A stretch of 12,730 nt of DNA from Streptosporangiaceae bacterium (GTDB lineage: Bacteria > Actinomycetota > Actinomycetes > Streptosporangiales > Streptosporangiaceae). Each line of letters begins with the position of its first letter. Positions within the stretch are counted from its first letter, which is position 1. The stretch covers positions 1 to 12,730 of the forward strand of contig JASHSZ010000135.1 of the NCBI GenBank assembly GCA_030040815.1, given 5' to 3'. Shown here piece after piece: positions 1 through 12,326 of this stretch. The position numbers were made by a program, and so were the translations under genes. The notes beneath the pieces were generated by a model, which was not told where the DNA came from, did no database searches, and saw only the letters and a program-made list of their open reading frames with translations.

Positions 1-297
1 ATCCTGCACGTCACGGCCGGGCACGGGCTGAATCTGCAGTACCACCGGGAGAAGGACGAAACCCAGTTCGTGCTGTCCGGGGCCGCCCTGGTCGAGTACG
101 GGCCGTCGGCAGACGCGCTCGTCAGCCAGCACTTCGGGCCGGGAGACGCCATTCACCTGCCGGCGGGCACCGTCCACCGGATCACGGCCATCACGGATCT
201 CATCATCGCGGAGGCATCGACCGCTGAGCCTGGCTGGCGCGAGGACGTGGTCCGGCTGGAGGACAAGTACGGGCGGAGCGGCACCACAGCGCCCTGA
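1..297 (+). CDS. Cupin-domain protein, 3' part (5' end outside window)
   Basis: The reading frame is open from base 1 and ends at TGA 295-297, giving the last 98 residues of a protein that begins outside the window. The visible part is a single conserved-barrel cupin. A first motif region contains LQYHREKDETQFVLSG (one histidine, then Glu, then Gly), and a second has the pattern GDAIHLPAGTVHRI, matching G-x5-P-x-G-x2-H. These carry the usual metal-ligand positions (His, Glu, His), although the first motif has only one clear His. The type resembles small mannose-6-phosphate isomerase-like cupins that bind a sugar phosphate or other small ligand; the substrate cannot be told. The C-terminal tail (VRLEDKYGRSG) is common in short sugar-related cupins. 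It is convergent with the rRNA methyltransferase gene, with only 4 bases between the stop codons. Cupin fold is well supported; the exact function is unknown. Confidence 0.8.
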   Translation: MLHVTAGHGLNLQYHREKDETQFVLSGAALVEYGPSADALVSQHFGPGDAIHLPAGTVHRITAITDLIIAEASTAEPGWREDVVRLEDKYGRSGTTAP

Positions 298-301
298 CGG
301 C

Positions 302-1321
302 CTATGAGCGTGGCCGGGCGGTCCGGTCGGGAGCAGCACGGGGACGCGCTGACCGCGGACCCACTGCCTTGCTGGCCCAGCCGTCGAGCAGCAGGAAAAT
401 CTGCACCCACTGGTCCGGGCTCACGTATGCGACGACCGTGCGCCGGTCCACGCCCGCCTCGCCGCACGCCGCCGCCACCTGCTCCGGCGGATAGGACCGG
501 CGGAGCGAGGCCTGAACAGAGCCGCCGACCCCACTGAATCCTGCCTGCACCAGCCGCCGGTATGCCGCCAGCCGCCCTGGGCTGACCAGCGGCTCGGATC
601 GGCGCGAGAGCCGCAGGATGCCTGCGTCGACCCTGGGCACCGGGCGGAACTCGGTGCGCGCGATCGTGCCTGCCAGTTGCCAGCTGAACTGCGGCCATGT
701 GCTGACCGTCAGCTGAGTCCACCGCCCGTAGCCGCCGGTCCGCTTCCGCGCGTACTCCAGCTGGGTGATGAGCGTGGCAGCGGTCATCCGGGACGCGCGC
801 AGGCACCACTCGACGATCGGCGCGGTGAGCGAGAACGGCGCGTTACCCACGACCTGGAATGGCCGGGATGGCGGCCGGGCAGCGAGGAAATCGCTGGGCA
901 CCACGCGGACGTTCGGCCGGTCGGCCACCCGCGCCGCGAGTCGGCCCGCAAGGCTCTCGTCAATCTCATAGGCGACGACCTCGCCGAACAACGCGGCGAG
1001 CCGCGCGGTCAGGATGCCCTCACCCGCGCCCACCTCGATGCACAGGCTGCCTGGATCGGGCCGCACCGCGGCGAGGAACTGGCGCGCCGCCTGCTGGCCG
1101 CGCAGGTAATTCTGGGACAACTCGCGGCGGCGGCGGTCGGTTTCGGTGCGCCCGGCGACGGCGCGATGGGAACCGCCAGGCCGGCGCACGCTGCCCGGGT
1201 TACCCGAGCGCCCGGCCCGGTATCGGGGCCGTGCGGTGGTCGCGCGCCGGGCCCCGGGCTCACCAGAGCCGGCGGGCGGGCTGGACCGACTGCCTTCGTC
1301 CTGGCCTGGCGCGCTACTCAC
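302..1321 (-). CDS. ErmE-type 23S rRNA (adenine-N6) methyltransferase
   Basis: Predicted S-adenosylmethionine-dependent enzyme that methylates a 23S rRNA adenine (A2058 in the Erm family), giving macrolide-lincosamide-streptogramin B resistance. Starting at GTG 1321 it has 339 residues. Residues 1-55 are a basic, Pro/Gly-rich extension. The Erm core follows: SQNYLRG (the GQNFL-like entry), motif I EVGAGEGILT, EID at the end of strand 2, SDFL (acidic motif III region), NAPF (motif IV, usually NIPY/NIPF), then QLEYARKRTGGYGRW, FRPVPRVDAGILRL, and near the C-terminus GFSGVGGSVQASL and VVAYVSPDQW. These blocks closely follow ErmE of Saccharopolyspora as I remember it, rather than KsgA. The gene lies 58 bases after the arfB stop. 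A -10-like TACCCT (1333-1328) ends six bases before the GTG, so a leaderless transcript is possible; GTG 1189 is an alternative start that would remove most of the extension. Family call is strong; actual resistance is inferred. Confidence 0.9.
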   Translation of the reverse strand: MSSAPGQDEGSRSSPPAGSGEPGARRATTARPRYRAGRSGNPGSVRRPGGSHRAVAGRTETDRRRRELSQNYLRGQQAARQFLAAVRPDPGSLCIEVGAGEGILTARLAALFGEVVAYEIDESLAGRLAARVADRPNVRVVPSDFLAARPPSRPFQVVGNAPFSLTAPIVEWCLRASRMTAATLITQLEYARKRTGGYGRWTQLTVSTWPQFSWQLAGTIARTEFRPVPRVDAGILRLSRRSEPLVSPGRLAAYRRLVQAGFSGVGGSVQASLRRSYPPEQVAAACGEAGVDRRTVVAYVSPDQWVQIFLLLDGWASKAVGPRSARPRAAPDRTARPRS

Positions 1322-1327
1322 CGGTCA

Positions 1328-1333
1328 AGGGTA
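1328..1333 (-). promoter_or_regulatory. Candidate -10 element for leaderless erm-like gene
   Basis: Reading on the minus strand, TACCCT is followed by TGACCG and then the GTG start codon. A -10 hexamer (TAnnnT form) ending six bases before the start codon puts the expected transcription start at or next to the GTG, the geometry of leaderless genes that are common in actinomycetes. No convincing -35 element and no Shine-Dalgarno sequence are seen upstream, so this rests on the hexamer and its spacing alone. Confidence 0.4.
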
Positions 1334-1379
1334 GCGAGCCGCCTGCCGCGCAGGTGATCAGCGCACTACCCGCAGCGCC

Positions 1380-1802
1380 TCAGTCCTCGGTCGGCCGACG
1401 CAGCCGTTTGAGCGCGGCTCGCCGCTGCTTATCCGCGAGCCGCCGCTCGACCGACGCCCGCGTCGGGCGGGTTGGGCGCCGCGCCGGCCTCGGTGCTGCC
1501 GTCGCCGCGGTGAGCAGGGCGCTGAGGCGCGCGGCGGCCGCCTCCCTGTTGCGCAGCTGTGACCGATGCTCGCTGGCGGCCACGGTGATGGTCCCGCCGG
1601 ATAGCCGGTCCGACAGCGCCGCGAGCGCACGCTCCTTGAGCACAGGCGGCAGGATGGCCGACCCGGCCAAGTCGAAGGAGAGCTCTGCCTGGCTGTCGGT
1701 GGTATTGACGGACTGGCCGCCCGGTCCCTGCGACCGGGAAAACCGCCACGTCAGCTCGTCGGGCGGAATGGTAATGCCGCGTACCGTGACGGCCAGGCTC
1801 AC
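1380..1802 (-). CDS. arfB: ArfB-type peptidyl-tRNA hydrolase (ribosome rescue)
   Basis: Member of the alternative ribosome-rescue factor B (YaeJ) family, which enters the A site of ribosomes stalled on mRNA lacking a stop codon and hydrolyses the peptidyl-tRNA. The protein is a single class I release-factor catalytic domain: RFSRSQGPGGQSVNT with the catalytic GGQ at residues 28-30, then an alpha/beta body, and a C-terminal basic tail (about 108-140, with RRLADKQRRAALKRLRR) of the kind that lies in the mRNA channel in this family. I start at GTG 1802 because a GGAG Shine-Dalgarno sits 8 bases upstream (1811-1814) and the resulting 140 residues match the family length. The longer frame to ATG 1886 adds 28 residues with no family counterpart. 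It is divergent from mscL and upstream of, and codirectional with, the erm-like gene. Confidence 0.92.
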   Translation of the reverse strand: MSLAVTVRGITIPPDELTWRFSRSQGPGGQSVNTTDSQAELSFDLAGSAILPPVLKERALAALSDRLSGGTITVAASEHRSQLRNREAAAARLSALLTAATAAPRPARRPTRPTRASVERRLADKQRRAALKRLRRPTED

Positions 1803-2008
1803 CGCAGCATCTCCGACATGCTGTCTCTCTATCACGCCGGGCGCTACCGGCATGCCGTCGCGGGGCCGACCGCGCGCCGCCTGCATCCCGCCGTCGCCGA
1901 GGCTGGGCCGAGCGCCGACATCCTTCTACGATCAGGTCAAGCCGGCAGCGATCACTGGTAAAGTCGCGGCCTGCTGACTCGGTCGCGATACTGCTGCCGA
2001 TGACGGCT
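1803..2008. promoter_or_regulatory. Divergent intergenic region arfB / mscL
   Basis: About 200 bases separate the proposed arfB start from mscL and must contain the promoters of both divergent genes. On the plus strand a GATACT (1987-1992) resembles a -10 element about 27 bases before the mscL start, without a good -35 partner. On the minus strand TTGACC (1940-1935) resembles a -35 element, but no good -10 follows at 16-18 bases. I see no gene here. Assignment of individual elements is weak. Confidence 0.35.
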
Positions 2009-2013
2009 GGAGG
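2009..2013 (+). promoter_or_regulatory. Shine-Dalgarno deciding the mscL start
   Basis: GGAGG directly abuts an ATG at 2014 (no spacer) but stands six bases before a second in-frame ATG at 2020. Normal spacing therefore selects 2020 as the start. Confidence 0.75.
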
Positions 2014-2019
2014 ATGAGT

Positions 2020-2481
2020 ATGGGTGGTTTCCGGAAATTCCTGATGCGGGGCAATCTGATCGACCTTGCCATCGCGGTGGTCATTGGCGTGGCTTTCAAC
2101 GCCATCGTCCAGGCTCTAGTCGCGGACATGATCACCCCGCTCATCACGGCCATCACCGGCAACAAGCTCAACTTCAGCAAACTCTCCTTCACGGTCCACC
2201 ACTCAACCTTCACCTACGGCGCTGTCATTAACGCAGCCATCTCGTTTCTCGTGATCGCCGCCGTTGTGTACTGGCTCATCGTCGCGCCTGCGGCCAAGAT
2301 GACCGCGCTTGCCAACCGGAACAAGGCCGCCACCGAGCGCCCGTGTCCGGAGTGCCTCAGCGAGATCCCGAGCGCCGCCACGCGCTGCATGTACTGCACC
2401 AGTGAAGTAGCTCCGGTGCCGCCCCCAGCGGTGGACAAGGCTCCATCGCGACGAGCCCGGCACAGCCTGGCCCCGGACTGA
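2020..2481 (+). CDS. mscL: Large-conductance mechanosensitive channel MscL with zinc-ribbon-like tail
   Basis: MscL forms a homopentameric pore in the cytoplasmic membrane that opens under high tension to release solutes during hypo-osmotic shock. The protein (153 residues from ATG 2020) shows the family order: N-terminal amphipathic [22 protein letters not shown]1 (about 12-40, containing [22 protein letters not shown]), a periplasmic loop, TM2 (about 68-92, ending VVYWLIVAP), and a cytoplasmic helix with AKMTALANR. After this come four cysteines, C109, C112, C123 and C126, in [10 protein letters not shown]7-CMYC, a rubredoxin-like zinc knuckle. E. coli MscL lacks this tail, but similar tails occur in actinobacterial MscL as I recall. 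A Pro-rich and then basic C-terminal end follows. The start is set by the GGAGG at 2009-2013. Hairpins follow the stop codon. Confidence 0.95.
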
Positions 2482-2489
2482 GCGCACCA

Positions 2490-2510
2490 GGCGGCTACTA
2501 ACTCGCCGCC
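2490..2510 (+). terminator. Hairpin 1 after mscL
   Basis: GGCGGC (2490-2495) and GCCGCC (2505-2510) form a six-base-pair GC stem with a nine-base loop, starting nine bases after the mscL stop. No U-tract follows. It is the first of three hairpins in 77 bases. Confidence 0.5.
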
Positions 2511-2515
2511 CGCGC

Positions 2516-2534
2516 CAGCGGTACGGCACCGCTG
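2516..2534 (+). terminator. Hairpin 2 after mscL
   Basis: CAGCGGT (2516-2522) and ACCGCTG (2528-2534) form a perfect seven-base-pair stem with a five-base loop, followed by TTAGAAAAGTT. This is the best mscL terminator candidate, of the U-poor type usual in GC-rich actinomycetes. Confidence 0.55.
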
Positions 2535-2537
2535 TTA

Positions 2538-2579
2538 GAAAAGTTGTTGGCGAGCTACCGGCTCGCGACTCCTACCGGT
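2538..2579 (+). promoter_or_regulatory. Upstream region of secreted-protein gene: shared 12-mer, hairpin and direct repeat
   Basis: GAAAAGTTGTTG (2538-2549) also occurs at 8182-8193 before a different candidate gene, in both cases with CTAC five bases further on. It is followed by an inverted repeat GCGAGC-TACCG-GCTCGC (2550-2566) and by CTACCGG occurring twice (2555-2561 and 2572-2578), a direct repeat with 17-base period. The block lies 60-100 bases before the start codon at 2639, where a promoter or operator is expected. No standard -35/-10 pair fits cleanly. Confidence 0.4.
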
Positions 2580-2625
2580 GAAACGAACAGATGCCCTCGC
2601 CCACCGTGGTGGGCAGGGGCGCACC

Positions 2626-2633
2626 GGGAGGAG
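2626..2633 (+). promoter_or_regulatory. Shine-Dalgarno deciding the secreted-protein start
   Basis: GGGAGGAG ends five bases before ATG 2639. It selects this start over an in-frame candidate at 2591, which would add 16 residues in front of the signal segment. Confidence 0.8.
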
Positions 2634-2638
2634 AACCG

Positions 2639-3619
2639 ATGAACACACTTGGCCGAGCAGCAGCCATCATTGCCGGTGGGCTCGCGTCAGCCGCCGCACT
2701 GACGGCGGCAGTGCTGCTGCCGGTGCATCACAGCACGCCCGTGAGCGCGGCCACGTCTGCGCTGGGCACCGGGGCTGGCGCCGCACACGCGAGCGCCAGC
2801 CCCAGTGCACAGCCGTCGTCTGGCGCCGGCACCAGTGGCTCGGCCAGCCCGGCCGGGTCGGCAGGGACCGGATCAGGATCAGGAAACGGCTCAGCAGGAT
2901 CTGGATCGGCTGCTGGATCCGGGAACGGCGCTAGCTCCGGGTCCGGCACGGGCTCGGGTTCAGGCTCGGGCTCGGGTTCAGGCTCGGGATCGGGCTCTGG
3001 GTCTGGTTCAGGGTCTGGAAGCGGCACGACCGGAGGCACAAAGCTGCCGACGCCCACCGGAACGATCGGCGACCCGAACGCGCCGTGCCTGATCGGCTAC
3101 GTCTGGCGGCAGGCCTACTCCGGCGACTATGTGTGCGTGACGCCGGCGAATCATGCGCAGGCGCTGGCCGACGACGCCGCGGCCATCAGCCGGATCCAGC
3201 CGGGCGGCGGCGCTTACGGCCAGTACACCTGCATCCAGGGCTACGTCTGGCGGCAGGTTGTCCCCGACGACTACACATGCGTCACGCCGGCCGTGCGGTC
3301 GCAGGCCGCCTATGACAACTCGCAGGCCGCCAGCCGCGTTGCTCTGCTCAACCTCTGCGTGATCGGCACCAACGTCGAGGTCGCCGGCGACGCGTTCAAC
3401 TTCGGCCCTGTACTGGTGGAGGTGCGCGGCAGCGACGGCACGGTGGTCTGGTCGCAGCAGGTCACAGCTACTTCCATCGCCGGCCTGCCGGGCGCGTCGT
3501 TCTACGCCCCGACGTCAGTCCAGATGCCGACAGACCCGTCGGACTACTACGTGACGGCCCTGGACATCGTGTCCGGGCGCTGGTCGAGCCAGATCCCTAT
3601 CGACAGCTACTGCAGTTAA
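2639..3619 (+). CDS. Secreted or membrane-anchored protein with Gly-Ser linker and two GYVWRQ repeats
   Basis: No named function is recognised. From ATG 2639 it has 326 residues. Residues 7-28 are hydrophobic and act as a signal peptide or N-terminal anchor. Residues about 40-135 are Ala/Ser/Gly-rich and end in a nearly pure Gly-Ser tract, a flexible spacer. Two tandem units follow with a 48-residue period: C150-x3-GYVWRQ...DYVC166VTP and C198-x3-GYVWRQ...DYTC214VTP, each trailed by an Ala-rich stretch ending in SR. Similar GYVWR-x-DxVCVTP units occur in other actinobacterial secreted proteins in my memory, without assigned role. The C-terminal 85 residues look like a beta-sandwich ([18 protein letters not shown]...). 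The protein has six cysteines (150, 166, 198, 214, 240, 325), enough for three disulfides, consistent with life outside the cytoplasm. The ECF sigma fusion gene follows on the same strand. Confidence 0.85.
2866..3030 (+). repeat. Gly-Ser coding microsatellite-like tract
   Basis: The DNA encoding the Gly-Ser linker is an imperfect hexamer array of GGCTCG, GGTTCA and GGATCG variants. It includes a perfect 18-base tandem duplication (2953-2970 and 2971-2988, unit CTCGGGTTCAGGCTCGGG). The length of such a tract can change by slippage in steps of three bases without breaking the frame. Confidence 0.8.
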
Positions 3620-3637
3620 CCGGCGATGCACGCCACT

Positions 3638-3678
3638 GAGCGCCGGGCGCTGGCCGACCGCGGCCAGGCCCGGCGCTC
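3638..3678 (+). terminator. Strong hairpin after the secreted-protein gene
   Basis: GAGCGCCGGG (3638-3647) is perfectly complementary to CCCGGCGCTC (3669-3678), and inside it TGGCC (3651-3655) pairs with GGCCA (3662-3666), leaving a six-base loop and a small internal bulge. This gives 15 base pairs, almost all GC, starting 18 bases after the stop codon. No U-tract follows. It probably ends the upstream transcript and separates it from the sigma-factor gene 80 bases downstream. Confidence 0.7.
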
Positions 3679-3747
3679 GGCAGGCGAGGGCCGAGAAATC
3701 CGGCTGCAGCTGGGCCTCGCAGCTGTCCACCCTGGCTCTTGTCCCCC

Positions 3748-3753
3748 TACGGT
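3748..3753 (+). promoter_or_regulatory. Candidate -10 element for leaderless sigma-factor gene
   Basis: TACGGT is followed by TGGGCC and then ATG 3760. The six-base spacing to the start codon is the same as before the erm-like gene, so transcription may begin at the ATG. There is no Shine-Dalgarno. The best -35 candidate (TGTCCA, 3724-3729) is poor. Confidence 0.35.
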
Positions 3754-3759
3754 TGGGCC

Positions 3760-5175
3760 ATGCGCGATCGTGAGATCGTCGCGGCCATCGTCGCCGGCGA
3801 CCCGGCTGGCCTTGCGGCGGCCTATGACAGCTACGCCGGGGTCCTGCACGCCTACTGCCGGTCCCTGCTGGGCGAGCCCGCTGACGCCGCCGACGCAGTG
3901 CAGGACACGTTCGTCATCGCCGCCGCGAAGCTGGGCAGCCTGCGGGATCCAGACCGGCTGCGGCCATGGCTCTACGCGGTCGCGCGGAATGAGTGCTACC
4001 GGCGGCTCCGCGGGCGAGTGCGGTTGGCGTCGCTCGACGAGGCGGGCGACGTGAGCGACACGCTGACTGACGCTTCGTCGGAAGCAGGCCGGGCCGAGCT
4101 GAGAGATCTCGTCGCCGCTGCGCTCGCAGGCATGAATCCTGGCGACCGCGAGGTCATCGAGCTGAACCTTAGGAATGAGGTGGAGGGGCAGGACCTGGCC
4201 GATGCACTCGGTGTCCCGCTGAATCAGGCGCACGCACTGGCATCTCGGGCCCGTGGTCAGCTCGAGCGCTCACTGGGCGCGCTGCTTGTCGCGCGCACCG
4301 GTCGCGCGGCGTGCGCGGAGCTTGACGCGATGCTGGCCGACTGGGATGGCACGCTCACCATCCTGCTGCGCAAGCGCGTCAGCAGACATATAGAAAACTG
4401 CGAGATCTGCGGCGAGCGCAAGCGGCGCGAGCTCAGCCCAGCGGCCCTGTTCAGCGTTCTCCCCGTCATCGCCCTGCCGCCAGGTCTGCGACAGCAGGTG
4501 CTGCACCTGGTGTCGGACAACTCCTCCGACGCGATCAGCTACCGCGCGCACGTGGTCAGCAGGGCCGGCCGGTTCAGCCCTGCGGGCTTCCCCGTCCAGC
4601 TCAGCCCGGCCCGGCGGAGCCGCAACCGTGGTATCCGCGCGCACCCTGCGCTCTACGCGGCCGCCGTCGTCGTGATACTCCTGGCCGGTGGCGGTTCAGC
4701 GGCCTACGCGCTGAAGCACAAGCACACCGCGGCAGATGTTCGCCCAGGCGGTGTCACGGTGACCATCACCGTGCCAGCCAAACCAGCTGCAACAACCGGC
4801 CCGTCGACGCCAGCGCCAACCCCGACGACTGCCAGCCCGACGGCCGTGCCAGTCGTGGTGACGGCGAGCCCGTCTCCCGGACTCTCGCCCGGCACCCTGC
4901 AAGAGTCGCCGAGCATTGTGAACCTGCCGAGCCCGAGCCCGGTCTTTGCAACCTTCACCCTGACGGCCGAGGGCGGGCCAGTGACGTACACGATCTCGGC
5001 ACCAGGCGAGTCGTACGTCATTGTCACGCCAGCAAGCGGCACCCTCCAGCCCGGCGAACAGGTTCAGGTCAGCGTCAGCGTCAGCGCTACTGCCACCTCG
5101 CCCGCGAACTTCCCCACGCTCAATGTGGAGCCCGGCAACATCGTGGTCACCATCTACTACGGTCCTTCGATGTGA
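3760..5175 (+). CDS. ECF sigma factor fused to zinc-finger anti-sigma-like segment, TM helix and extracellular domain
   Basis: Predicted membrane-tethered extracytoplasmic-function sigma factor of 471 residues, about 2.5 times the usual ECF length. Order of parts: sigma-2 region (about 1-85, with DAADAVQDTFVIAAAKL and LRPWLYAVARNECYRRLR); sigma-4 region (about 108-170, GDREVIELNLRNEVEGQDLADALGV, then a recognition helix NQAHALASRARGQLE); C185 with H210-x3-C214-x2-C217, the spacing of zinc-binding anti-sigma domains; one transmembrane helix (about 297-318, AAAVVVILLAGGGSAAYAL); a Pro/Thr/Ser-rich stalk; and a beta-rich outer domain (about 395-471). Fusions of this kind are known among actinobacterial ECF groups (ECF52/ECF53 are the ones I recall). 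The likely role is to sense an envelope signal outside and free or modulate sigma activity inside. ATG 3760 aligns with the usual ECF N-terminus (DREIVAAIVAGDPAGLAAAYD); a TTG at 3739 is the only nearby alternative. Confidence 0.9.
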   Translation: MRDREIVAAIVAGDPAGLAAAYDSYAGVLHAYCRSLLGEPADAADAVQDTFVIAAAKLGSLRDPDRLRPWLYAVARNECYRRLRGRVRLASLDEAGDVSDTLTDASSEAGRAELRDLVAAALAGMNPGDREVIELNLRNEVEGQDLADALGVPLNQAHALASRARGQLERSLGALLVARTGRAACAELDAMLADWDGTLTILLRKRVSRHIENCEICGERKRRELSPAALFSVLPVIALPPGLRQQVLHLVSDNSSDAISYRAHVVSRAGRFSPAGFPVQLSPARRSRNRGIRAHPALYAAAVVVILLAGGGSAAYALKHKHTAADVRPGGVTVTITVPAKPAATTGPSTPAPTPTTASPTAVPVVVTASPSPGLSPGTLQESPSIVNLPSPSPVFATFTLTAEGGPVTYTISAPGESYVIVTPASGTLQPGEQVQVSVSVSATATSPANFPTLNVEPGNIVVTIYYGPSM

Positions 5176-5181
5176 CGCTCG

Positions 5182-5201
5182 GTGGCCGCAGCCGCGGTCA
5201 C
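5182..5201. terminator. Hairpin between convergent sigma-factor and polymerase genes
   Basis: GTGGCCGC (5182-5189) and GCGGTCAC (5194-5201) pair over eight positions, with one G-U pair on the plus-strand RNA and a four-base loop AGCC. It starts seven bases after the sigma-gene stop and covers the polymerase stop codon. It would be a better terminator for the plus-strand transcript, since the minus-strand RNA has an A-C mismatch. Confidence 0.5.
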
Positions 5202-6886
5202 TTGGCGTCGGCGTAGCAGTCGACTACGGCGGTACTCATCGGGAAGCTCACGTCCGTGTCGCCGAAGACCAGCCGGGTGGCGTCGGCCGCCGCGCCGTCG
5301 ATCGCGGCCACGACCTCCGCCGCATCCTCAGCCGGGCAGTGCACGATGACCTCATCGTGCTGGAAGAACACGAGTTCCGCCTGACCAGGGCGGGGAACGC
5401 CGGTACCAGCCTGCGCGGCAGCGAGCCGGGTCCGCAGCAACGCGAGCATGACCAGAGCCCAGTCTGCAGCGCTGGCCTGGACGACGTAGTTGCGGGTAAA
5501 CCGGCCACGAGCGCGGGCGGCAGCCGCCGCGCCCGGGTCGCGCGCTTCGTCCGGGTCGCCTGACTCGCTCGTCAGCGAGAGCCACGCCGCCGAGGGCGGC
5601 GGGCAGGTCCGGCCGAGCACGGACCTGACCACGCGCCCCTCCTCTCCCGCCTGCGCCGCGTTCTCGACGAACGCGGCGGCCTGCGGGAATCGTCGGCGGA
5701 GCAAGGCCAGGGACTGTCCGCCGTCACCGCCGGTCCCGCCGTACATCGCCGACAGCAGCGCGACCTTTGCCTGGCTGCGGTCGCTGCCGATCGCCGCGGC
5801 GACCGCTTCGTAGAGATCGCCGGCGGCAGCGGCCTGGGCGAACGGACGGTCACCGGCTAGCGCCGCCAGGACCCTGGGCTCGAGCTGAGCGGCGTCGGTC
5901 ACCACGAGCGTCCAGCCAGGGTCGGCGACGACGGCCTGGCGCAACAGCCTCGGGATCTGCAACGCGCCGCCACCGCGGGAGGCCCACCGGCCGGACACCA
6001 CGCCACCGACGACGTACTCGGGCCGGAACCGGCCGCCCGACACCCAGGCATCCAGCCACGACCAGCCATTCGCCGCGTGCAGCCTCGCCAGTTCTTTGTA
6101 CTCGAGCAGCAGCGGGATGACCGGGTGATCGATCTGCCGCAGCGCAGCGGATCTCGTCGACGACACCCGGACGCCCGCGGCCGTCAGTGCGCGGAGCAGC
6201 TGCGTCCGCGATTCCGGGTTGACCGGACGGGTCGCGCCGAGCGCGGTGGTTATCTGCCCGGCCAGGTCGGCGAGCTTCGCCGGGCGCAACGCGGGCCCGG
6301 TGATCACCGGCGGACGTGCGCCGAGCAGACCGGTGAGTAGCCGGTCGTGCACGTCAGTTCGCCACGGCAGGCCCGCCGCGGTCATCTCGACGGCCGCCAG
6401 TGCGCCGGCTGACTCGGCGGCCGCGAGCAGGCCGAACTTCGCCTGGTCTGGATCGGCCCTGATCCGGGCCAGCTGGTCCGCGTGCGCCGTGATCAGGTCC
6501 GCAAGCTGCGCTGCCTCGTCTGGCTCCGGTGCGTCACCGGTGTCGAACGGCAGCGTCGCGGGCTCGGCGTCGGCCCCTTGCACGGTACTGTGCAGCGGAC
6601 TCGCCGGGTGGCCAGCCGGCGACGGCCCGGCCCGGCCGTCACGTGCCCGCAGCAGCGACCCGATGAGTTCAACGTCGTGACAGCGGCTGACGCGAGCGCC
6701 GGATCGCAGCAGGGCCGGGTAACCGAGCCGGGCCGATCGCCACACCCAGCGAACCTGGCCGGCAGCCTCCTGCGCGGCGACGACATGGGCCAGGTCTGCT
6801 ACCTTCTCGGCCGGCCCGGCCGGGGTTCCGTCATCGCCGAGCGAGCGGAGCAGCCCACCCGCGCCTGCTCCCGCCACCAGCGCCAT
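5198..6886 (-). CDS. PolA-like family A DNA polymerase (actinobacterial second type)
   Basis: Family A polymerase of the shorter actinobacterial type usually labelled bifunctional 3'-5' exonuclease/DNA polymerase. Motif A is VTDAAQLEPRVLA (near 5873-5896), keeping the catalytic Asp and the Gln-x-Glu but with Ala-Ala for Tyr-Ser and Pro for Leu. Motif B is RSQAKVALLSAMYGG (near 5738-5782), keeping Arg, Lys and Tyr-Gly but with Leu-Ser at the usual Phe-Gly. Motif C is FFQHDEVIVHCP (near 5339-5368) with the catalytic HDE. The N-terminal 200 residues resemble a degraded exonuclease domain; I see no DxE pair, so proofreading is doubtful, and there is no 5' nuclease domain. The role is probably repair or lesion tolerance rather than replication. 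Start uncertain: ATG 6886 (562 aa) has GGGA seven bases upstream and fits remembered relatives; GTG 6892 and GTG 6910 (570 aa) are also in frame. Confidence 0.88.
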   Translation of the reverse strand: MALVAGAGAGGLLRSLGDDGTPAGPAEKVADLAHVVAAQEAAGQVRWVWRSARLGYPALLRSGARVSRCHDVELIGSLLRARDGRAGPSPAGHPASPLHSTVQGADAEPATLPFDTGDAPEPDEAAQLADLITAHADQLARIRADPDQAKFGLLAAAESAGALAAVEMTAAGLPWRTDVHDRLLTGLLGARPPVITGPALRPAKLADLAGQITTALGATRPVNPESRTQLLRALTAAGVRVSSTRSAALRQIDHPVIPLLLEYKELARLHAANGWSWLDAWVSGGRFRPEYVVGGVVSGRWASRGGGALQIPRLLRQAVVADPGWTLVVTDAAQLEPRVLAALAGDRPFAQAAAAGDLYEAVAAAIGSDRSQAKVALLSAMYGGTGGDGGQSLALLRRRFPQAAAFVENAAQAGEEGRVVRSVLGRTCPPPSAAWLSLTSESGDPDEARDPGAAAAARARGRFTRNYVVQASAADWALVMLALLRTRLAAAQAGTGVPRPGQAELVFFQHDEVIVHCPAEDAAEVVAAIDGAAADATRLVFGDTDVSFPMSTAVVDCYADAK

Positions 6887-6956
6887 CCGCACATCCCGAG
6901 TGTGCGGCACGGCACTGACACGCGCAGCGGTGCGCAGCGCTGCTGCCGGGAAGTCG

Positions 6957-6974
6957 GCACCGCTGCAGCGGTGC
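6957..6974. repeat. 18-base perfect palindrome upstream of the polymerase gene
   Basis: GCACCGCTGCAGCGGTGC reads the same on both strands. It lies between the stop of the upstream gene (7016) and the polymerase start (6886-6910). It could be an operator for a dimeric regulator, or a hairpin (seven base pairs around a TGCA loop) acting as terminator or attenuator between the two minus-strand genes. Confidence 0.6.
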
Positions 6975-7015
6975 GCACCACTACTGCCGTTGGCGAGATC
7001 CGCCGCTCCGACCGG

Positions 7016-7987
7016 TTAGCCGCCCTGCGTGCGTCGGCGAGCGGACCGGCTCAGCTTGCTGGCGTGCGACCTTCGGCCGGGCGTCACTTCGGCGGCGACA
7101 TCGACGTCTTCCCCGTCGTCCGCGATGGCGTCCGGCCCTGCGGACGAGTCCCTCTGGCCGGGATCGTAACGGGGCGGAAAGCCCTGATAGCGCGGTCCGC
7201 GGTAGCCAGGCCCCCGGGTTGTGCCGGTGGCTGCACCCGGCTCGCCTACCGCATCTTCTGAGCGTGTTCGGCGGTCCGGCGTGTCGGGCAAGGGCTCAAG
7301 CAGTGACTCCGGGACATCCGATGTGGCAGCGCCTCCGTCGGCGGCCAGGTCCGCCGGTGACAGCTCGCCGTCTTCGACTGGCCAGTCAGCCTCGCCCGGT
7401 CCGGTCGTCTCCTCGGCGCCGTCGGCAACCGCCTCCGGCTGACGCCGGCTGGTCCGCTCCGGTCGGCCCGTACGGGCCACCCGACCCCTCGCCGGGCCGA
7501 CTTCGGCCGCTCGCGGCGCGGCCCGGCGCCGCTCGCTGCCGTCGTCATGTTCATCCGCTGACGTCGCGTCCTCGCCGCCCAGCCGGCCGACCGCGAATCC
7601 GTTGGGCGGGCCCGGCGGCAGCAGGTCAATCCCGGGCGGCGGTGCCTGCGCGGGCACGCCAAGCGGACCGCCGTAGCCGCGAGCCGCCATCGGCGCCGGG
7701 CCGCTCCCGGGGAGCCGCCAGTCAAGCCGCGCGCCAACTTCTGAGTACACCGATCCCACGCAGTCGTGACCGTCAAGCAGCGACGTGAGCAGCTCGGCTT
7801 CGTCCGCCCGTAGCCCGAACACGACACGGGGCTGGCCCCAGGGCTCTTCCAGCGAGTACCCGACATAACTCGACACCGGCGGTAACGGCTCCCCGCCGAG
7901 TCCGTGCATCGCGCGCCAGCGCTCCCACGCCTGCTCCAGCGCGATAGCTGCGCGGTCCGCGCGCTGCATCAAGTCCGGATCACGCAT
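7016..7987 (-). CDS. Hypothetical protein: conserved N-terminal domain with long disordered tail
   Basis: Not recognised as a named family. The 323-residue protein starts at ATG 7987, with an AGGGAGG Shine-Dalgarno (7996-8002) at 8-base spacing. Residues about 5-90 look folded: a helix (LMQRADRAAIALEQAWERWRAMHGL), then VSSYVGYSLEEPWGQPRVVFGL and a second helix (ADEAELLTSLLDGHDCVGSVY). Residues 90-323 are Pro/Gly/Ala-rich with alternating acidic and basic runs, likely disordered, ending in a basic patch (SKLSRSARRRTQ). There is no signal peptide or transmembrane segment, so it is cytoplasmic. The folded part has the feel of a conserved actinobacterial hypothetical. It is codirectional with the polymerase gene, with 105-130 bases and a palindrome between them. 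Confidence 0.8.
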   Translation of the reverse strand: MRDPDLMQRADRAAIALEQAWERWRAMHGLGGEPLPPVSSYVGYSLEEPWGQPRVVFGLRADEAELLTSLLDGHDCVGSVYSEVGARLDWRLPGSGPAPMAARGYGGPLGVPAQAPPPGIDLLPPGPPNGFAVGRLGGEDATSADEHDDGSERRRAAPRAAEVGPARGRVARTGRPERTSRRQPEAVADGAEETTGPGEADWPVEDGELSPADLAADGGAATSDVPESLLEPLPDTPDRRTRSEDAVGEPGAATGTTRGPGYRGPRYQGFPPRYDPGQRDSSAGPDAIADDGEDVDVAAEVTPGRRSHASKLSRSARRRTQGG

Positions 7988-8216
7988 CGTCCATACCTCC
8001 CTCGCAGCGCCGTACTACCCCGCTCTCGAGCGGTGCCCCCACGGCGCTTCCGGCCCTCGCCTGGCGCACCGGTCCGGTCGCCGCGCGACACGACGTCGAT
8101 CGTGCCGCCGCGCTGTGCGCCGGCCTCACGACGGCCTGAGCCTCAGTATCGTCGTGACCCGTCGCCGGCAAAGGCGATTACGAAAAGTTGTTGAAAGACT
8201 ACGTACAGTTACCATC
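7988..8216. other. Intergenic region upstream of the hypothetical gene
   Basis: No gene is seen on either strand. It must hold the promoter of the minus-strand gene at 7987 and, if real, of the small plus-strand frame at 8217. A weak minus-strand pair (TTTGCC, 16 bases, GATACT, about 8172 down to 8145) is the best candidate for the former. A short dyad CACGA-CGTCGA-TCGTG lies near 8088-8103. Confidence 0.35.
8182..8215 (+). promoter_or_regulatory. Candidate promoter before the small split reading frame
   Basis: TTGTTG (8188-8193), 16 bases, then TACCAT (8210-8215) gives a plausible housekeeping-type pair, three and four matches to consensus respectively. An overlapping TACAGT (8204-8209) stands seven bases before ATG 8217 and would instead suit a leaderless start. 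The -35 candidate is part of GAAAAGTTGTTG (8182-8193), also found at 2538-2549. Confidence 0.4.
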
Positions 8217-8470
8217 ATGAGCCGACATGACACTCCAGGCACCGCGCACAGACTGCACACGGATGCCTGATCGACGCCGTTCCCGGCAGTTACATGGGCT
8301 TACTCTCGCCGGTCTCCCGGCTATCCGACCTGGGAGGCCGGATCGACCCCGGCGACATCACTGGCCTAAGGCTCCTCATCGCATCGAACGCGAAGCGCGC
8401 CCCCCAATGCGGAGTGCTGACGGCCGGGGTCGACCCCCCCAATCTGTTCACTGGTGTGGCCGCTCACTAA
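8217..8470 (+). pseudogene. Candidate small gene split by a -1 frameshift
   Basis: ATG 8217 opens a 17-codon frame (MSRHDTPGTAHRLHTDA) that ends at TGA 8268-8270. The frame one base back reads on from CTG 8267 as LIDAVPGSYMGLL to TAA 8468-8470, about 67 residues, with parts such as LSDLGGRIDPGDITGL and GVLTAGVDPPNLF. In this second stretch the third codon position is clearly richer in G/C than the second, the mark of a coding frame in this genome, and the amino-acid mix is ordinary, unlike the Arg/Pro-rich competing frames. The frame has no strong start of its own (ATG 8294 lacks a Shine-Dalgarno). The parts join into an 84-residue protein if one base is re-read near 8267. It could be a broken gene, a recoded gene, a sequencing error, or chance. 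A promoter-like pair lies before it and hairpins after it. I do not recognise the protein. Confidence 0.4.
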
Positions 8471-8474
8471 CAGT

Positions 8475-8512
8475 GCGGTGCGCACCGCTGTCCTGGCAAT
8501 AGCACAGCCAGG
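8475..8512. terminator. Two hairpins between the small frame and bldC
   Basis: GCGGTGCGCACCGC (8475-8488) is a perfect 14-base palindrome that can fold with a GCGC loop. CCTGGC (8492-8497) and GCCAGG (8507-8512) form a six-base-pair stem with a nine-base loop. They lie just after the TAA at 8470 of the candidate plus-strand frame and 15 or more bases after the bldC stop on the minus strand, so they can act for either direction. Confidence 0.5.
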
Positions 8513-8526
8513 CCACGGCCACGGCC

Positions 8527-8730
8527 TTACTCTGAGCGCTGCTGCGGGATGCCCGCCAGGAGGGCACGGACCTCGGTCTCCCGGTACCGGCGGTGGCCGC
8601 CGAGCGTCCGGATCGACGTGAGTTTTCCTGCCTTCGCCCACCTGGTGACTGTCTTCGGGTCAACCCGGAACATCGTTGCGACCTCTGCCGGCGTGAGCAG
8701 CGGCTCGGCCTCTGGTGTACGTGCTGACAT
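8527..8730 (-). CDS. bldC: Developmental regulator BldC (MerR-like DNA-binding protein)
   Basis: The 67-residue protein is a lone winged helix-turn-helix of the MerR type without an effector domain: LLTPAEVATMFRVDPKTVTRWAKAGKL (helix-turn-helix) followed by the wing TLGGHRRYRE and the end LAGIPQQRSE. It agrees almost residue for residue with Streptomyces BldC as I remember it (68 residues). In Streptomyces BldC binds direct repeats cooperatively and holds back the switch from vegetative growth to sporulation. GGAGGAGAGG (8739-8748) supplies the Shine-Dalgarno for ATG 8730. Its position beside the valine dehydrogenase, DUF3073 and pur genes is the conserved actinomycete order, which supports the symbol. 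Whether this organism sporulates cannot be seen here. Confidence 0.97.
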   Translation of the reverse strand: MSARTPEAEPLLTPAEVATMFRVDPKTVTRWAKAGKLTSIRTLGGHRRYRETEVRALLAGIPQQRSE

Positions 8731-8925
8731 AATGACGGCCTCTCCTCCTGGACCAGTCTTGTGATCCTTACTTCTTCTTCTTTCCTGTTCATGGCTCCTA
8801 GCGAAGCCTGCACTGGATGTCCCATATAGTCCGCTGAGACCATATTGCCATCACCAGCGGTGACAAGTCGACAACCGGGAGCAAAGTAATGCGAGTGTCG
8901 CCGCGGCGTGCCCCCACATCCTGTC

Positions 8926-8955
8926 ACGCTGCGTGATTCTAGCGACACGCAGCGT
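8926..8955. repeat. Perfect 10-base inverted repeat in the bldC/vdh intergenic region
   Basis: ACGCTGCGTG (8926-8935) and CACGCAGCGT (8946-8955) are perfect reverse complements around a ten-base AT-richer loop. No gene ends nearby on either strand, so it is not an obvious gene terminator. It may be a regulator site or the end of an unannotated transcript. Confidence 0.6.
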
Positions 8956-9327
8956 CGCAACGGGCAGATTCGGAAAAGTCATCCGCGCCTCTCATCAGCT
9001 ACTTAGCTCGGTTGCCGCTGTGTCCATCCCGCCGCGTCCGCCCCACCATGTACGCGACCCGTATGGTGCCGATCTCCTCCAGTTCGGCCCTATGACGTGC
9101 GCACTCCCCAGCCGGAAACACCGACGGCGCAACGGCTCAGCTGCCCGAATCCTCCCTCCCTGGCGTCACTCGCGACGCCCTGGCCCATTAGCCGGTCGGA
9201 TAGCTCTGTTTCCCGTGTGACCGGGTAACCCTGTGGCCTGACACGCTATCCCTGTTTGGCTGTCAACCGGCCGAACTGCTCCATTAATCCCCTGACTTGC
9301 CGCCAGATAATCAGGTTCCGGATCTTT

Positions 9328-9341
9328 TGCCCGAACGGGCA
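9328..9341. repeat. TGCCCG-AA-CGGGCA dyad
   Basis: Two six-base arms with a two-base centre (complementary arms TGCCCG and CGGGCA) lie about 250 bases before the dehydrogenase start. As RNA it is a tight hairpin. Four T residues stand before it and none after it on the plus strand, and the minus strand shows AAAA after it, so it is not a canonical terminator on either strand. An operator is equally likely. Confidence 0.45.
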
Positions 9342-9523
9342 TCTGTGGCGTGCCTCGGACACCGTTGCAGCCTGCCCGCCAGCGACGCAGAAAGCAGCCG
9401 AAAACCTGCCACTTGTCGCGCTTTAGGCAGCATGACTAATCGTGACATGCCGTACCCGTCTGGGCAAAGGGCTACGCGCAAGTAAGTATCGTCAGCGCAC
9501 TGCCGCCCGGTCCAGCGTGCCGC

Positions 9524-9531
9524 TATAGGCT
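9524..9531 (+). promoter_or_regulatory. Candidate -10 region of the valine dehydrogenase gene
   Basis: TATAGGCT includes TAGGCT (TAnnnT form, 9526-9531). Transcription would start near 9538, downstream of GTG 9533 and upstream of the Shine-Dalgarno at 9579-9583, in agreement with GTG 9593 as the real start. No clear -35 is seen. Confidence 0.35.
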
Positions 9532-9592
9532 GGTGGCCGATCCGGCGTCAACGAAGACACCGGACAGAGCCGTAGCTTGGGAGCCCACGGAC

Positions 9593-10708
9593 GTGACCAC
9601 CGTATTTGGGCCGGATGTCGCTGACGATGCGACCACCGCGAGCACGGTCGGCGGACCGGGCGGGCATGAGCAAGTCGTGTTCTGCCAGGACCAGCAGTCC
9701 GGGCTGCGCGCCATCATCGCTATTTACTCCAGTGCGCTCGGCCCTGGCCTGGGCGGGACGCGGTTCTACCCGTATCCGAGCGAGAGCGCCGCGCTCGCGG
9801 ACGTACTCAACCTGTCCAGGGCCATGGCCTACAAGAACGCGCTGGCCGGGCTGGACCTCGGTGGCGGCAAGGCCGTCATCATCGGCGATCCGGACACGCT
9901 GAAGACCGAGGCACTGCTCCGCGCGTATGGCCGGTTTGTCGAGTCGCTGGGCGGCCGTTACATCACCGCTTGCGACATTGGCACCTGTAGCGAGGACATG
10001 GACATCGTCGCTCGGGAATCCAGGTTCGTCACCGGCCGGACCGTGCCGAACGGCGGTGCCGGTGATTCCTCGGTGCTCACCGCGTTCGGCGTGTTCCAGG
10101 GCATGCGCGCGTGCGCTGAGCACGTCTGGGGCAGCACCAGCCTGGACGGCAGGACGGTCGGCATCGAGGGCGTCGGCAAGGTCGGGCACCGGCTCGTCGG
10201 CCATCTCGCCGCCGAGGGCGCGCAGGTAGTGATCTTCGATACGAGCCGGGCCGCCATCGAGCGGGTTAAGGCCCAGCATCCGGCGGTAACGGTCGCCGCC
10301 AGCCGGACTGAGCTGATCAGCAGCTCGCTCGACGTCTACTCGCCGTGTGCGCTCGGGGGTGCCGTCGACGAAGCCACGGCCGAGGTGCTCACGGCACGGG
10401 TGATCTGCGGCGGGGCGAACAACCAGCTGGCGCATCCGGGTGTCGAGAAGATGCTGGCTGACCAGGGGATTGTGTACGCACCGGACTACCTGGTAAACGC
10501 CGGCGGCGTCATCCAGGTGGCCGACGAGCTGCACGGCTTCAGCTTTGACCGGGCCAAGGCCAAAGCCGCTCAGATCCTGACCACAACAAGGCAGATCCTG
10601 ACCGCCGCTGCCGCTGACGGCGTTCCGCCTGCGGTCGCGGCAGACCGGCTGGCCGAGCGCAGGATCGCCGAAATAGGCCGGCTTCGCGGCATTTACCTCG
10701 GGCGGTGA
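9593..10708 (+). CDS. vdh: Valine/leucine-type amino acid dehydrogenase (NAD-dependent)
   Basis: Oxidative deaminase of branched-chain amino acids (L-valine to 2-oxoisovalerate with ammonia, NAD-dependent), cytoplasmic, used in nitrogen and branched-chain catabolism. The catalytic block [19 protein letters not shown] has the two lysines 12 residues apart (K81 and K93) typical of leucine/valine dehydrogenases. [18 protein letters not shown] follows, and the Rossmann motif [13 protein letters not shown] ends at IFD, favouring NAD. Late blocks [14 protein letters not shown] and [21 protein letters not shown] are also typical. It agrees well with Streptomyces Vdh from memory. I start at GTG 9593 (371 residues): GGGAG lies nine bases upstream, the length matches Vdh, and a likely -10 lies within a few bases of the competing GTG 9533 (391 residues). 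Leucine versus valine preference cannot be set from sequence. Confidence 0.93.
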
Positions 10709-10709
10709 T

Positions 10710-10731
10710 CGCTTCGCCGGAATCTGAAGCG
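10710..10731 (+). terminator. Weak hairpin after the valine dehydrogenase gene
   Basis: CGCTTC (10710-10715) and GAAGCG (10726-10731) can form a six-base-pair stem with a ten-base loop, starting two bases after the stop codon. It is modest and lacks a U-tract. Confidence 0.35.
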
Positions 10732-10750
10732 GCGCCTAGCGCTCAAAGCA

Positions 10751-10770
10751 GGTACGGTTATACCTGTACC
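10751..10770. promoter_or_regulatory. Imperfect 20-base dyad in the vdh/DUF3073 gap
   Basis: GGTACGGTTATACCTGTACC is an inverted repeat with 16 of 20 symmetric positions: perfect outer arms GGTAC/GTACC around a TATA centre. It sits in the 214-base gap ahead of the DUF3073 gene. AT-centred dyads of this size are typical of operators for dimeric regulators; the TATACC inside could also serve as a -10 element. The regulator is unknown. Confidence 0.45.
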
Positions 10771-10922
10771 GTCACGGCGAGCGCGGCGCACTCCGGCGGG
10801 CGGAGTTGCGGCGGGTTAGCCGTGCGCGCACGAACAGCCGGGATCTGCCGTGTTAGCGGGCAACGACAAAGCGCGGTGAGCAGGGACCTGTCGGGTTCCG
10901 TACGTTAGAGGGGGTCGAGCCA

Positions 10923-11216
10923 ATGGGGCGCGGCCGGGCTAGGGCCAAGCAGGCCAAGGTGGCACGCCAGCTCAAGTACAGCGGTGGCGGCACTGACCTT
11001 GACCGGCTGCGGGCTGAGCTGGGCGTCGACTCGGATCGGCATGGTGTCAACGGGGACTCCGCACGCGCGGACCTGGGCGACCGCTACGCCGGGGACGACG
11101 ACTCTGATTACGCACAGGAAGACGACGAGGACGAGGACTGGGAGGACGACGAGTACGGTGCCGACGGTCTCGTCCGGCAGTCCGGCTCGTCGAGCGCATC
11201 GTCGGCTGGAGCGTAA
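10923..11216 (+). CDS. DUF3073 family protein
   Basis: Small actinobacterial protein of unknown function (97 residues). The N-terminus MGRGRARAKQAKVARQLKYSGGGTDL is the family signature: a strongly basic stretch followed by KYSGGGTDLDRL. The middle and C-terminal half are very acidic (Asp/Glu run about 60-77) and probably disordered, ending in a Ser-rich tail. The basic head with acidic tail suggests nucleic-acid or ribosome contact with self-masking, but that is inference. The start is fixed by GAGGGGG (10908-10914) at 8-base spacing. It lies between the valine dehydrogenase gene and convergent purM, the position it holds next to purM in Streptomyces as I recall, with a bidirectional terminator after it. 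Confidence 0.93.
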   Translation: MGRGRARAKQAKVARQLKYSGGGTDLDRLRAELGVDSDRHGVNGDSARADLGDRYAGDDDSDYAQEDDEDEDWEDDEYGADGLVRQSGSSSASSAGA

Positions 11217-11225
11217 CCGCACGCT

Positions 11226-11254
11226 AGCGCGCTGACCCGCAGCTTCAGCGCGCT
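11226..11254. terminator. Bidirectional terminator between DUF3073 and purM
   Basis: AGCGCGCTGA (11226-11235) and TCAGCGCGCT (11245-11254) form a perfect ten-base-pair stem with a nine-base loop. It occupies the 48-base gap between two convergent stop codons, nine bases after DUF3073 and ten bases past the purM stop. Symmetry lets it work in both directions. Confidence 0.75.
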
Positions 11255-11264
11255 GTCCGCACGT

Positions 11265-12326
11265 TCAGCGCCGATGGCTGCCGGTTAGCCTCGCGGTTCC
11301 CGAGCCGGGAATAATCTGGCCGAGCACCCACGACGGCACGTCGCGCTCGGCCAGCAGTTGCAGCGCGCGGTCGCAGTCGTCCACCGCTACCACGGCGGCC
11401 ATCCCGACGCCCATGTTGAACACCCGCTCCATCTCCGCCGCATCGACGCCGCCCCGCTCCGCCAGCAGGCCGAACACCGGCGCGGGCTGCCAGCTGCCAC
11501 GGTCTAGCACCGCGTCCGCGCCCGGCGGCAGCACCCTGGCCAGGTTCGCCGCGAGCCCGCCGCCAGTGACGTGGGCGAATGTCCGGACGGCGCAGCTGCC
11601 GGCGAGCGCCAGGCAGTCCCTGGCGTAGATCCGGGTCGGGGTCAGCAGCTCTGCGCCGAGCGGCCGGCTGAGCTCTGCCGGCTGGCTGTCCAGGTCCAAT
11701 CCGGTGCCCGGCGCGTCAAGGATCGCCCGCACCAGCGAGAACCCGTTGGAATGCAGGCCAGAGGCAGCCATGCCGATGACGACATCTCCGGGCCGGACGC
11801 GGTCCGGCCCGAGCAGCCGGTCCGCGTCGACCACACCGGTGGCAGCGCCGGCCAGATCGAAGTCGTCCGCGCCGAAGTGGCCTGGGTGCTCGGCGGTCTC
11901 GCCCCCGAGTAGCGCGCAGCCCGCCCGCACGCAGCCGTCGGCGATGCCGGCCACGATGGTCGCGACCCGCTCCGGATCCACCCGGCCGCAGACGATGTAG
12001 TCCGTCATGAACAGCGGCTCGGCGCCGCAGACGACCAGGTCGTCGACCACCATCGCAACGAGGTCGAATCCGATCGTGTCGAATCGCCTGAGCCGCTGGG
12101 CGATGACGACCTTCGTCCCCACGCCGTCGGTCGACGTGGCCAGCAGCGGATGGCGCAGGCCTGCCACGTTGGCAGCGTCGAACAAGCCAGCGAAGCCGCC
12201 AATGCCGCCCATCACCTCCGGGCGCGCAGTTCTGCCGACCGCCGTCCGCATCAGCTCCACCGCACGGTCCCCGGCGCCGATGTCGACGCCCGCCGCGGCG
12301 TAACTGGCGGGCCGTGCTGAGGTCAC
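11265..12326 (-). CDS. purM: Phosphoribosylformylglycinamidine cyclo-ligase (AIR synthetase)
   Basis: PurM closes FGAM to aminoimidazole ribonucleotide with ATP, the fifth step of de novo purine synthesis, as a cytoplasmic dimer. The 353-residue protein shows the family blocks in order: YAAAGVDIGAGDRAVELM, GGIGGFAGLFD, STDGVGTKV (ATP-binding loop), DDLVVCGAEPLFMTDYI, ALLGGETAEHPGHF, ASGLHSNGFSLVR, FAHVTGGGLAANLARVLP and VFNMGVGMAAVV. Length and order are those of complete actinobacterial PurM. I start at GTG 12326, whose GTGA overlaps the purF stop by four bases; the frame stays open further upstream, but that part lies over purF and its Arg-rich translation has no PurM similarity. The overlap implies translational coupling with purF. 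Confidence 0.97.
   Translation of the reverse strand: MTSARPASYAAAGVDIGAGDRAVELMRTAVGRTARPEVMGGIGGFAGLFDAANVAGLRHPLLATSTDGVGTKVVIAQRLRRFDTIGFDLVAMVVDDLVVCGAEPLFMTDYIVCGRVDPERVATIVAGIADGCVRAGCALLGGETAEHPGHFGADDFDLAGAATGVVDADRLLGPDRVRPGDVVIGMAASGLHSNGFSLVRAILDAPGTGLDLDSQPAELSRPLGAELLTPTRIYARDCLALAGSCAVRTFAHVTGGGLAANLARVLPPGADAVLDRGSWQPAPVFGLLAERGGVDAAEMERVFNMGVGMAAVVAVDDCDRALQLLAERDVPSWVLGQIIPGSGTARLTGSHRR
12323..12326 (-). other. GTGA stop/start overlap of purF and purM
   Basis: On the minus strand the sequence CCGTGACC contains the purF stop TGA and the purM start GTG sharing bases, a four-base overlap typical of translationally coupled genes in one operon. Confidence 0.85.

Follow-up and report, generated by a model that had tools for sequence, protein, structure and literature searches.

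Several described extracytoplasmic function (ECF) sigma factors carry anti-sigma parts on their own chain. According to the excerpted text of PMC5826349, SCO4117 of Streptomyces coelicolor—the first ECF52 member studied—is an ECF sigma factor followed by a zinc finger, a membrane helix, a Pro-rich stretch, and an outer domain; autoregulation and proteolytic release were proposed for ECF52, and the two proposed SCO4117 promoter motifs are called theoretical by their authors. For ECF48 and ECF53, a fusion with zinc-finger and membrane portions is described, with proteolysis expected, and in IutY of Pseudomonas putida (ECF243), sigma factor and membrane anti-sigma factor share one chain and are freed by Prc and RseP (excerpts of PMC8999054). 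Here, we describe a locus of this kind on a 12,730-nucleotide stretch of DNA of a Streptosporangiaceae bacterium (GCA_030040815.1, JASHSZ010000135.1, positions 1–12,730 of the forward strand; the window hereafter). It holds a gene for an exported protein with GYVWRQ repeats, followed by a gene for a fused, membrane-tethered ECF sigma factor, and a bipartite promoter-like element stands before the former. We consider it probable that the two genes form a surface-protein switch, in which the tethered sigma factor, once freed, drives the neighboring GYVWRQ gene from this element. The rare element found upstream of fused sigma genes also precedes the gene of the exported protein, and, hence, the sigma factor likely switches on the latter in response to envelope signals.

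Architecture of the fused sigma factor

The sigma gene (3760–5175, forward strand, like all features of the locus) encodes 471 amino acids. Its conserved start is the ATG at 3760; a TTG at 3739 merely opens the longest mechanical open reading frame. Sigma regions 2 and 4 span 3823–4263 (Pfam positions shifted by 7 for the ATG start), whereby Sigma70_r2 matches at 5e-14, above the Pfam cut-off, and Sigma70_r4_2 (5.5e-4), BACON_2 (5e-5), and zf-HC2 (0.09) match below theirs. The ECF superfamily model TIGR02937 (NCBIfam sigma70-ECF) is passed with 67.9 bits against a cut-off of 42.9, and the predicted structure resembles ECF sigma structures in a structure search. Next in the chain is a built-in anti-sigma-like segment, C185 ... 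H210xxxC214xxC217 (4312–4425), the four named residues of which are invariant in 51 of 51 aligned sequences, the window's included. Judged by motif, it is a zinc-binding anti-sigma (ZAS) segment as these are defined—HxxxCxxC plus a Cys or His further upstream—with C185 as a presumed ligand; the zf-HC2 cut-off of Pfam is missed by this segment with 13.3 bits versus 22.2. A predicted membrane helix at about residues 297–315 (4648–4704), the only hydrophobic helix by hydropathy, is followed by a predicted PapD/MSP/ASH-like outer domain (residues 378–471, 4891–5172), the outer part being modeled as a beta sandwich. BACON_2 reaches 23.5 bits here against a cut-off of 25, and PF19190 is precomputed in some close relatives. 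Hence, the initial annotation, which had read an ECF sigma factor with a zinc-finger anti-sigma-like segment, one membrane helix, and an outer beta-rich domain, is borne out by TIGR02937, the invariant residues, hydropathy, and the model.

Like SCO4117 as described in the excerpts, the window sigma factor bears an extension with a zinc finger (by motif only), a membrane helix, and a Pro-rich stretch, and both are actinobacterial. However, the outer end of SCO4117 is a carbohydrate-binding module (smart00776), and its gene adjoins atrA, whereas the window sigma factor ends in a PapD/MSP/ASH-like domain and adjoins the exported protein; the window element is also unlike the SCO4117 motif CSGYN-17-SRHA given in the excerpts of PMC5826349. 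No carbohydrate-binding module is among the 10 families listed for the window sigma factor at E values up to 1—its outer part is BACON_2-like with a PapD/MSP/ASH fold—and it is therefore not filed as ECF52. ECF48 and ECF53, compared by the excerpted descriptions only, show an architecture of the same kind, and IutY, likewise as excerpted, shares the union of sigma factor and membrane anti-sigma factor in one chain. The architecture is thus known (ECF48/52/53-like); the promoter and the swappable partner were not found in the literature searched.

A rare promoter-like element upstream of fused sigma genes

The element (2540–2575) consists of AAAGTTGTTGGC (2540–2551), 15 unconserved bases, and GACTCCTAC (2567–2575), and ends 63 nucleotides before the GYVWRQ start codon; its consensus is AAAGTTGTTGGC-N15-GRCTCMTAC. 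The core, GTTGTTGGC-N15-GACTCCTA at 2543–2574, recurs without mismatch at the same place in genome G054. Its 9 + 8 bases (17 core positions) and their spacing are identical in the window, G054, and G026, while the 15-base spacers of the window and G054 differ. G026 carries its exact copy within 1 kb 5′ of a fused sigma gene, and so does G037—by its sequence a member of an order other than Streptosporangiales—with one mismatch. With mismatches allowed, a scan of 19 regions that hold a sigma gene (266,908 bases) returned just these 4 matches (window, G054, G026, and G037), as opposed to 1 in 19 control regions (349,018 bases) and 0 in reversed text. At the other 40 GYVWRQ loci (L043 comes without upstream sequence, and L052 and L055 overlap), 39 show 4–8 mismatches at best and 1 has no candidate.

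A weight matrix built from these four copies, with the spacer ignored, exceeds 20 at 7 of 532,220 positions in the 19 sigma regions, all of them on the sigma strand and 5′ of the sigma gene. Seven of the 19 regions bear the element by this measure: the four seeds and three independent ones, namely L104 (G022, 22.2), L112 (G010, 25.2), and L114 (G019, 22.7). The 349-kb control holds 0 copies, with a maximum of 14.0 in 696,440 positions. The window element scores 41.2. When each seed in turn is excluded from the matrix, the seeds still reach 24.7–34.3 (34.3 for the window), against control maxima of 13.1–14.9. Two further positions exceed the control maximum and were not counted: one in L109 (16.2), on the same strand at a distance of more than 5 kb, and one in L105 (15.9), on the opposite strand.

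The gene behind the element varies by lineage, from the GYVWRQ protein to a related signal-peptide protein and LPxTG-type Cys-rich proteins. The gene that separates element and sigma gene in G026 starts MDSLTKGS...LLLLPGH and agrees with the GYVWRQ protein of G054 in 17 of the first 29 residues; the GYVWRQ unit was not found in it. The 195-amino-acid protein in this slot of G037 is identical to an NCBI "LPXTG cell wall anchor protein" of a Sporichthyaceae bacterium, and its Pfam anchor score lies just below the cut-off. The L114 copy (G019) stands before a gene 102 nucleotides 5′ of the sigma gene; the Cys-rich product of this gene, which by eye closes with LPVTG, a helix, and an Arg tail, passes no family model. 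The sequences themselves thus show that the element exists, that it is rare in the family, that it recurs 5′ of fused sigma genes on their strand, and that the gene behind it is swapped.

In its strict form, AAAGTTGTTGGC-N15-GRCTCCTAC with two mismatches, the element gives 5 matches in 4 of 341 family genomes and 0 in the reversed control, and three of these four genomes (G054, G026, and G010) carry the fused sigma factor. G037, the sole genome of its order searched, has one match, at its sigma locus. Two further copies stand in G054, one (score 33.2) before the gene of a 332-amino-acid protein that by eye resembles a kinase and matches no Pfam family, the other (23.6) before that of a DUF4232 lipoprotein. 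This distribution fits a small regulon. As a promoter, the element was not found in the literature searched, judging by titles.

The exported GYVWRQ-repeat protein

The gene before the sigma gene (start ATG 2639, stop 3619) encodes 326 amino acids, with a hydrophobic N-terminus (residues 7–30) as signal region, a Gly/Ser tract of 25 residues without interruption, and two units that open with C-LI-GYVWRQ at residue 150 and C-IQ-GYVWRQ at residue 198. Unit 1 comprises residues 150–195 (3086–3223) and unit 2 residues 198–235 (3230–3343); residues 236–326 (3344–3616) are predicted to form an Ig-like beta sandwich. Cys residues stand at 150, 166, 198, 214, 240, and 325. An exported protein with a Gly-Ser spacer and two Cys-bracketed GYVWRQ units had been annotated here, and the translation confirms it.

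The homolog search returned 755 proteins at E 0.001 for the GYVWRQ protein and at least 1333 for the sigma factor; the best 120 of each were examined. No Pfam family covers the GYVWRQ unit. The C-terminal end misses the Gmad2 cut-off (16.3 and 17.4 bits versus 25.7), and 3 of 40 family members match Gmad2 at E 0.01. The predicted model is poor in the units (blocks below 55 up to model residue 100), and no fold is therefore claimed for them; Foldseek gave 0 matches at 0.001 for the model. Other GYVWR-type repeat proteins share the Cys-bracketed units, some of them with an SH3_3 domain in addition, whereas in the paired form, as aligned here, two units are followed by another domain at the C-terminus. 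The repeat words GYVWRQ, GYVWREA, GFVWREA, and YVWREA were not mentioned in the literature searched.

Conservation of the gene pair

Co-occurrence was assessed on listed homologs from contigs of at least 3,000 bases (73 GYVWRQ, 83 sigma). Contigs of identical size appear in both lists 11 times, versus an expected mean of 0.37 (maximum 3; 200 other offsets of up to 100 bases). Among them are short contigs (5,296, 8,386, 9,573, and 16,566 bases), on which the two genes lie near each other; others measure megabases and show co-occurrence only. GYVWRQ matches at 1e-10 are present in 67 of 297 family genomes, with only G054 close (77% to the probe; next best 50%), and the fused sigma factor is found at 1e-60 in 12 of 41 genomes around G001.

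The initial annotation had tied its case to the two genes being neighbors in relatives, and this holds only within a narrow lineage. In G054 (L083), the pair recurs with a GYVWRQ protein 55% identical to that of the window and a lipoprotein-like gene (by eye) between the two genes; MscL and PolA, which flank the pair in the window, are absent from the 5.9-kb contig. This is the only one of 20 fetched GYVWRQ regions with the sigma gene alongside, and 0 of 17 fetched sigma regions hold a GYVWRQ match. Hence, the pair is real but narrow in lineage, and GYVWRQ is not an obligate partner of the fused sigma factor; the slot may be, and in the G026 sigma region, a gene with a similar signal region occupies it. 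L097 and L098, from two genomes, each hold at 17.3–18.1 kb a sigma relative of 27–28% identity, the alignment of which extends through the zinc-finger region; its distance from a GYVWRQ gene is about 8 kb. Within 1.5 kb of the other 40 GYVWRQ loci, no sigma gene was found except for a weak 18-bit match in L050. Wider synteny is absent as well: 0 of 8 other window genes tested match in the 37 fetched regions at 1e-6. Viral contigs gave no confirmed relatives of the sigma factor or the repeat protein and no exact copy of the element.

Some sigma loci show features of their own. In L109 (G002:C163) and L118 (G001:C343), two fused sigma genes stand one behind the other on the same strand. Four loci (L104, L115, L118, and L119) have a frame that by eye resembles a HAD phosphatase (...VIFDWGGTLTPWH...) and stops 101–307 nucleotides 5′ of the fused sigma gene. 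L105 at 12117 (G022:C13) is a very divergent fused-sigma relative, on the longest branch of the tree and a few kb from a closer relative.

Transcription of the locus

A strong hairpin (3636–3680), terminator-like without a T run, follows the GYVWRQ stop. It folds with −51.2 kcal/mol (z −6.75), a value reached in 0 of 200 shuffles, and confirms the hairpin noted earlier between the genes; G054 bears an equally strong one of different sequence at the same place (z −6.15). No T-tailed terminator was found. The −10-like hexamer TACGGT (3748–3753) lies 6 nucleotides before the sigma ATG, and 20 of 22 sigma genes, the window's included, carry TANNNT at 6–7 nucleotides from the start codon; at 100 other offsets, the motif occurs in 0.2 genes on average and in at most 2 of 22. 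Such −10 hexamers are typical of housekeeping sigma factors; a simple scan of 2400–5300 gave no sigma-70 promoter. As the hexamer sits so close to the start codon, the sigma gene probably has a leaderless promoter of its own, and, together with the hairpin behind the GYVWRQ stop, this makes two transcripts likely. The earlier proposal of separate transcripts under co-regulation is thus supported by the element, the hairpin closing the gene, and the TACGGT before the sigma gene.

In the window and G054, the spacer can fold into a small hairpin between the two boxes. A riboswitch or other RNA element was considered and rejected, with 0 Rfam matches at the gathering threshold and 5 chance-level matches (E 0.75–9). 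Folded without shuffle control, the seven copies give −11.8 to −12.2 kcal/mol in the window, G054, G037, and L114, and weaker values in L104 (−9.5), G026 (−6.6), and L112 (−5.2 kcal/mol). Given these three, pairing is not required by the boxes, though it may characterize some copies.

A proposed surface-protein switch and its alternatives

In the proposed switch, the zinc-finger segment would hold the sigma factor at rest and the outer PapD/ASH-like domain would sense the envelope. Proteolysis—as described for IutY and proposed for ECF52—would release the sigma factor, which would then read AAAGTTGTTGGC-N15-GRCTCMTAC, and the GYVWRQ protein would be expressed from this element on a transcript of its own. 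In the simplest view, the exported protein is the output; it may also feed back as a ligand. The functional link of the two genes, previously suggested from domains and adjacency, gains support from the apparent promoter of the GYVWRQ gene and its recurrence upstream of fused sigma genes.

Several observations weigh against such a switch. L104 (G022) and L112 (G010) show no clear gene between element and sigma gene, and the element there may therefore drive the sigma gene itself. For 15 of the 22 sigma genes, the 1.8 kb upstream hold no element that exceeds the control maximum; three of these (L108, L116, and L117) have less than 700 nucleotides of upstream sequence, and the L083 copy, 2.2 kb from its sigma gene and thus beyond the limit, was counted as present. 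The window's own sigma gene has no copy: the best score between the GYVWRQ gene and the sigma gene is 10.7, within the control range, and autoregulation from the same element was rejected on this ground. The G010 strict match (C65) lies on another contig than the sigma gene, without a clear target. In G120, a copy (L140, G120:C151, ending near 5005, reverse strand) stands 30 nucleotides before the ATG of a different ECF-type sigma gene. The two-mismatch core search in 14 genomes gave 13 matches in 7 genomes versus 4 in the reversed control, and, hence, loose core matches are partly noise. Finally, the inter-box hairpin may have an RNA or operator role. As an observation of its own, the G120 arrangement might be a sigma cascade.

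Among the alternatives, the one that fares best, doubtful as it is, takes the GYVWRQ protein as ligand or co-receptor of the outer domain, instead of or besides being the output, with the promoter closing a feedback loop. All five element loci with a clear gene (window, G054, G026, G037, and G019) encode a product with a signal-like start, which would bring it by export beside the outer domain; the partners share no recognized domain, however, and their binding is purely putative. Signal, co-receptor, or target had been left side by side in the initial annotation; the evidence favors the target. A fuller scheme is rather unlikely as a whole: a modular envelope circuit, in which a self-locked, membrane-spanning sigma factor with a PapD/ASH-fold sensor reads one dedicated promoter, the surface protein of the slot docks on the sensor and re-locks the sigma factor, and lineages exchange the slot gene, thereby rewiring their envelope sensing with sigma factor and promoter retained.

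We regard it as unlikely, too, that the element serves a different regulator—an ECF sigma factor such as that of G120, or a repressor—with the fused sigma factor and the surface gene as its clients or mere neighbors. The G120 copy leaves room for such a rival regulator, and the fused sigma genes devoid of the element and the possible self-pairing of the spacer in several copies speak for it as well; on the other side, 7 of 7 matches over 20 lie on the sigma strand 5′ of a fused sigma gene, in two orders, and the only strict match of G037 lies at the sigma locus. Chance or inherited synteny is improbable, since the pair, though limited to one lineage and lacking in 19 of 20 GYVWRQ and 17 of 17 sigma regions fetched, persists in G054 without MscL and PolA and despite an intervening gene, and the element is common to both loci.

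Other genes of the window

MscL (2014–2481, forward strand; Pfam 2.8e-32) bears a C-terminal CxxC...CxxC tail that resembles a zinc ribbon (UPF0547/DZR, both below cut-off). On the reverse strand, 302–1321 encodes an rRNA adenine dimethylase-type methyltransferase (RrnaAD 8.7e-49), and on the forward strand, 9533–10708 encodes a Glu/Leu/Trp-type amino-acid dehydrogenase, for which the best model, ScyB tryptophan dehydrogenase, reaches 318 bits versus the 600 required.

Conclusions

The element gives one subfamily of fused sigma factors a concrete, rare, and testable promoter. It also points to a first likely target, namely an exported member of a repeat family that Pfam has not named. Judging by the variable gene behind it, lineages may exchange the gene in the target slot and retain sigma factor and promoter.

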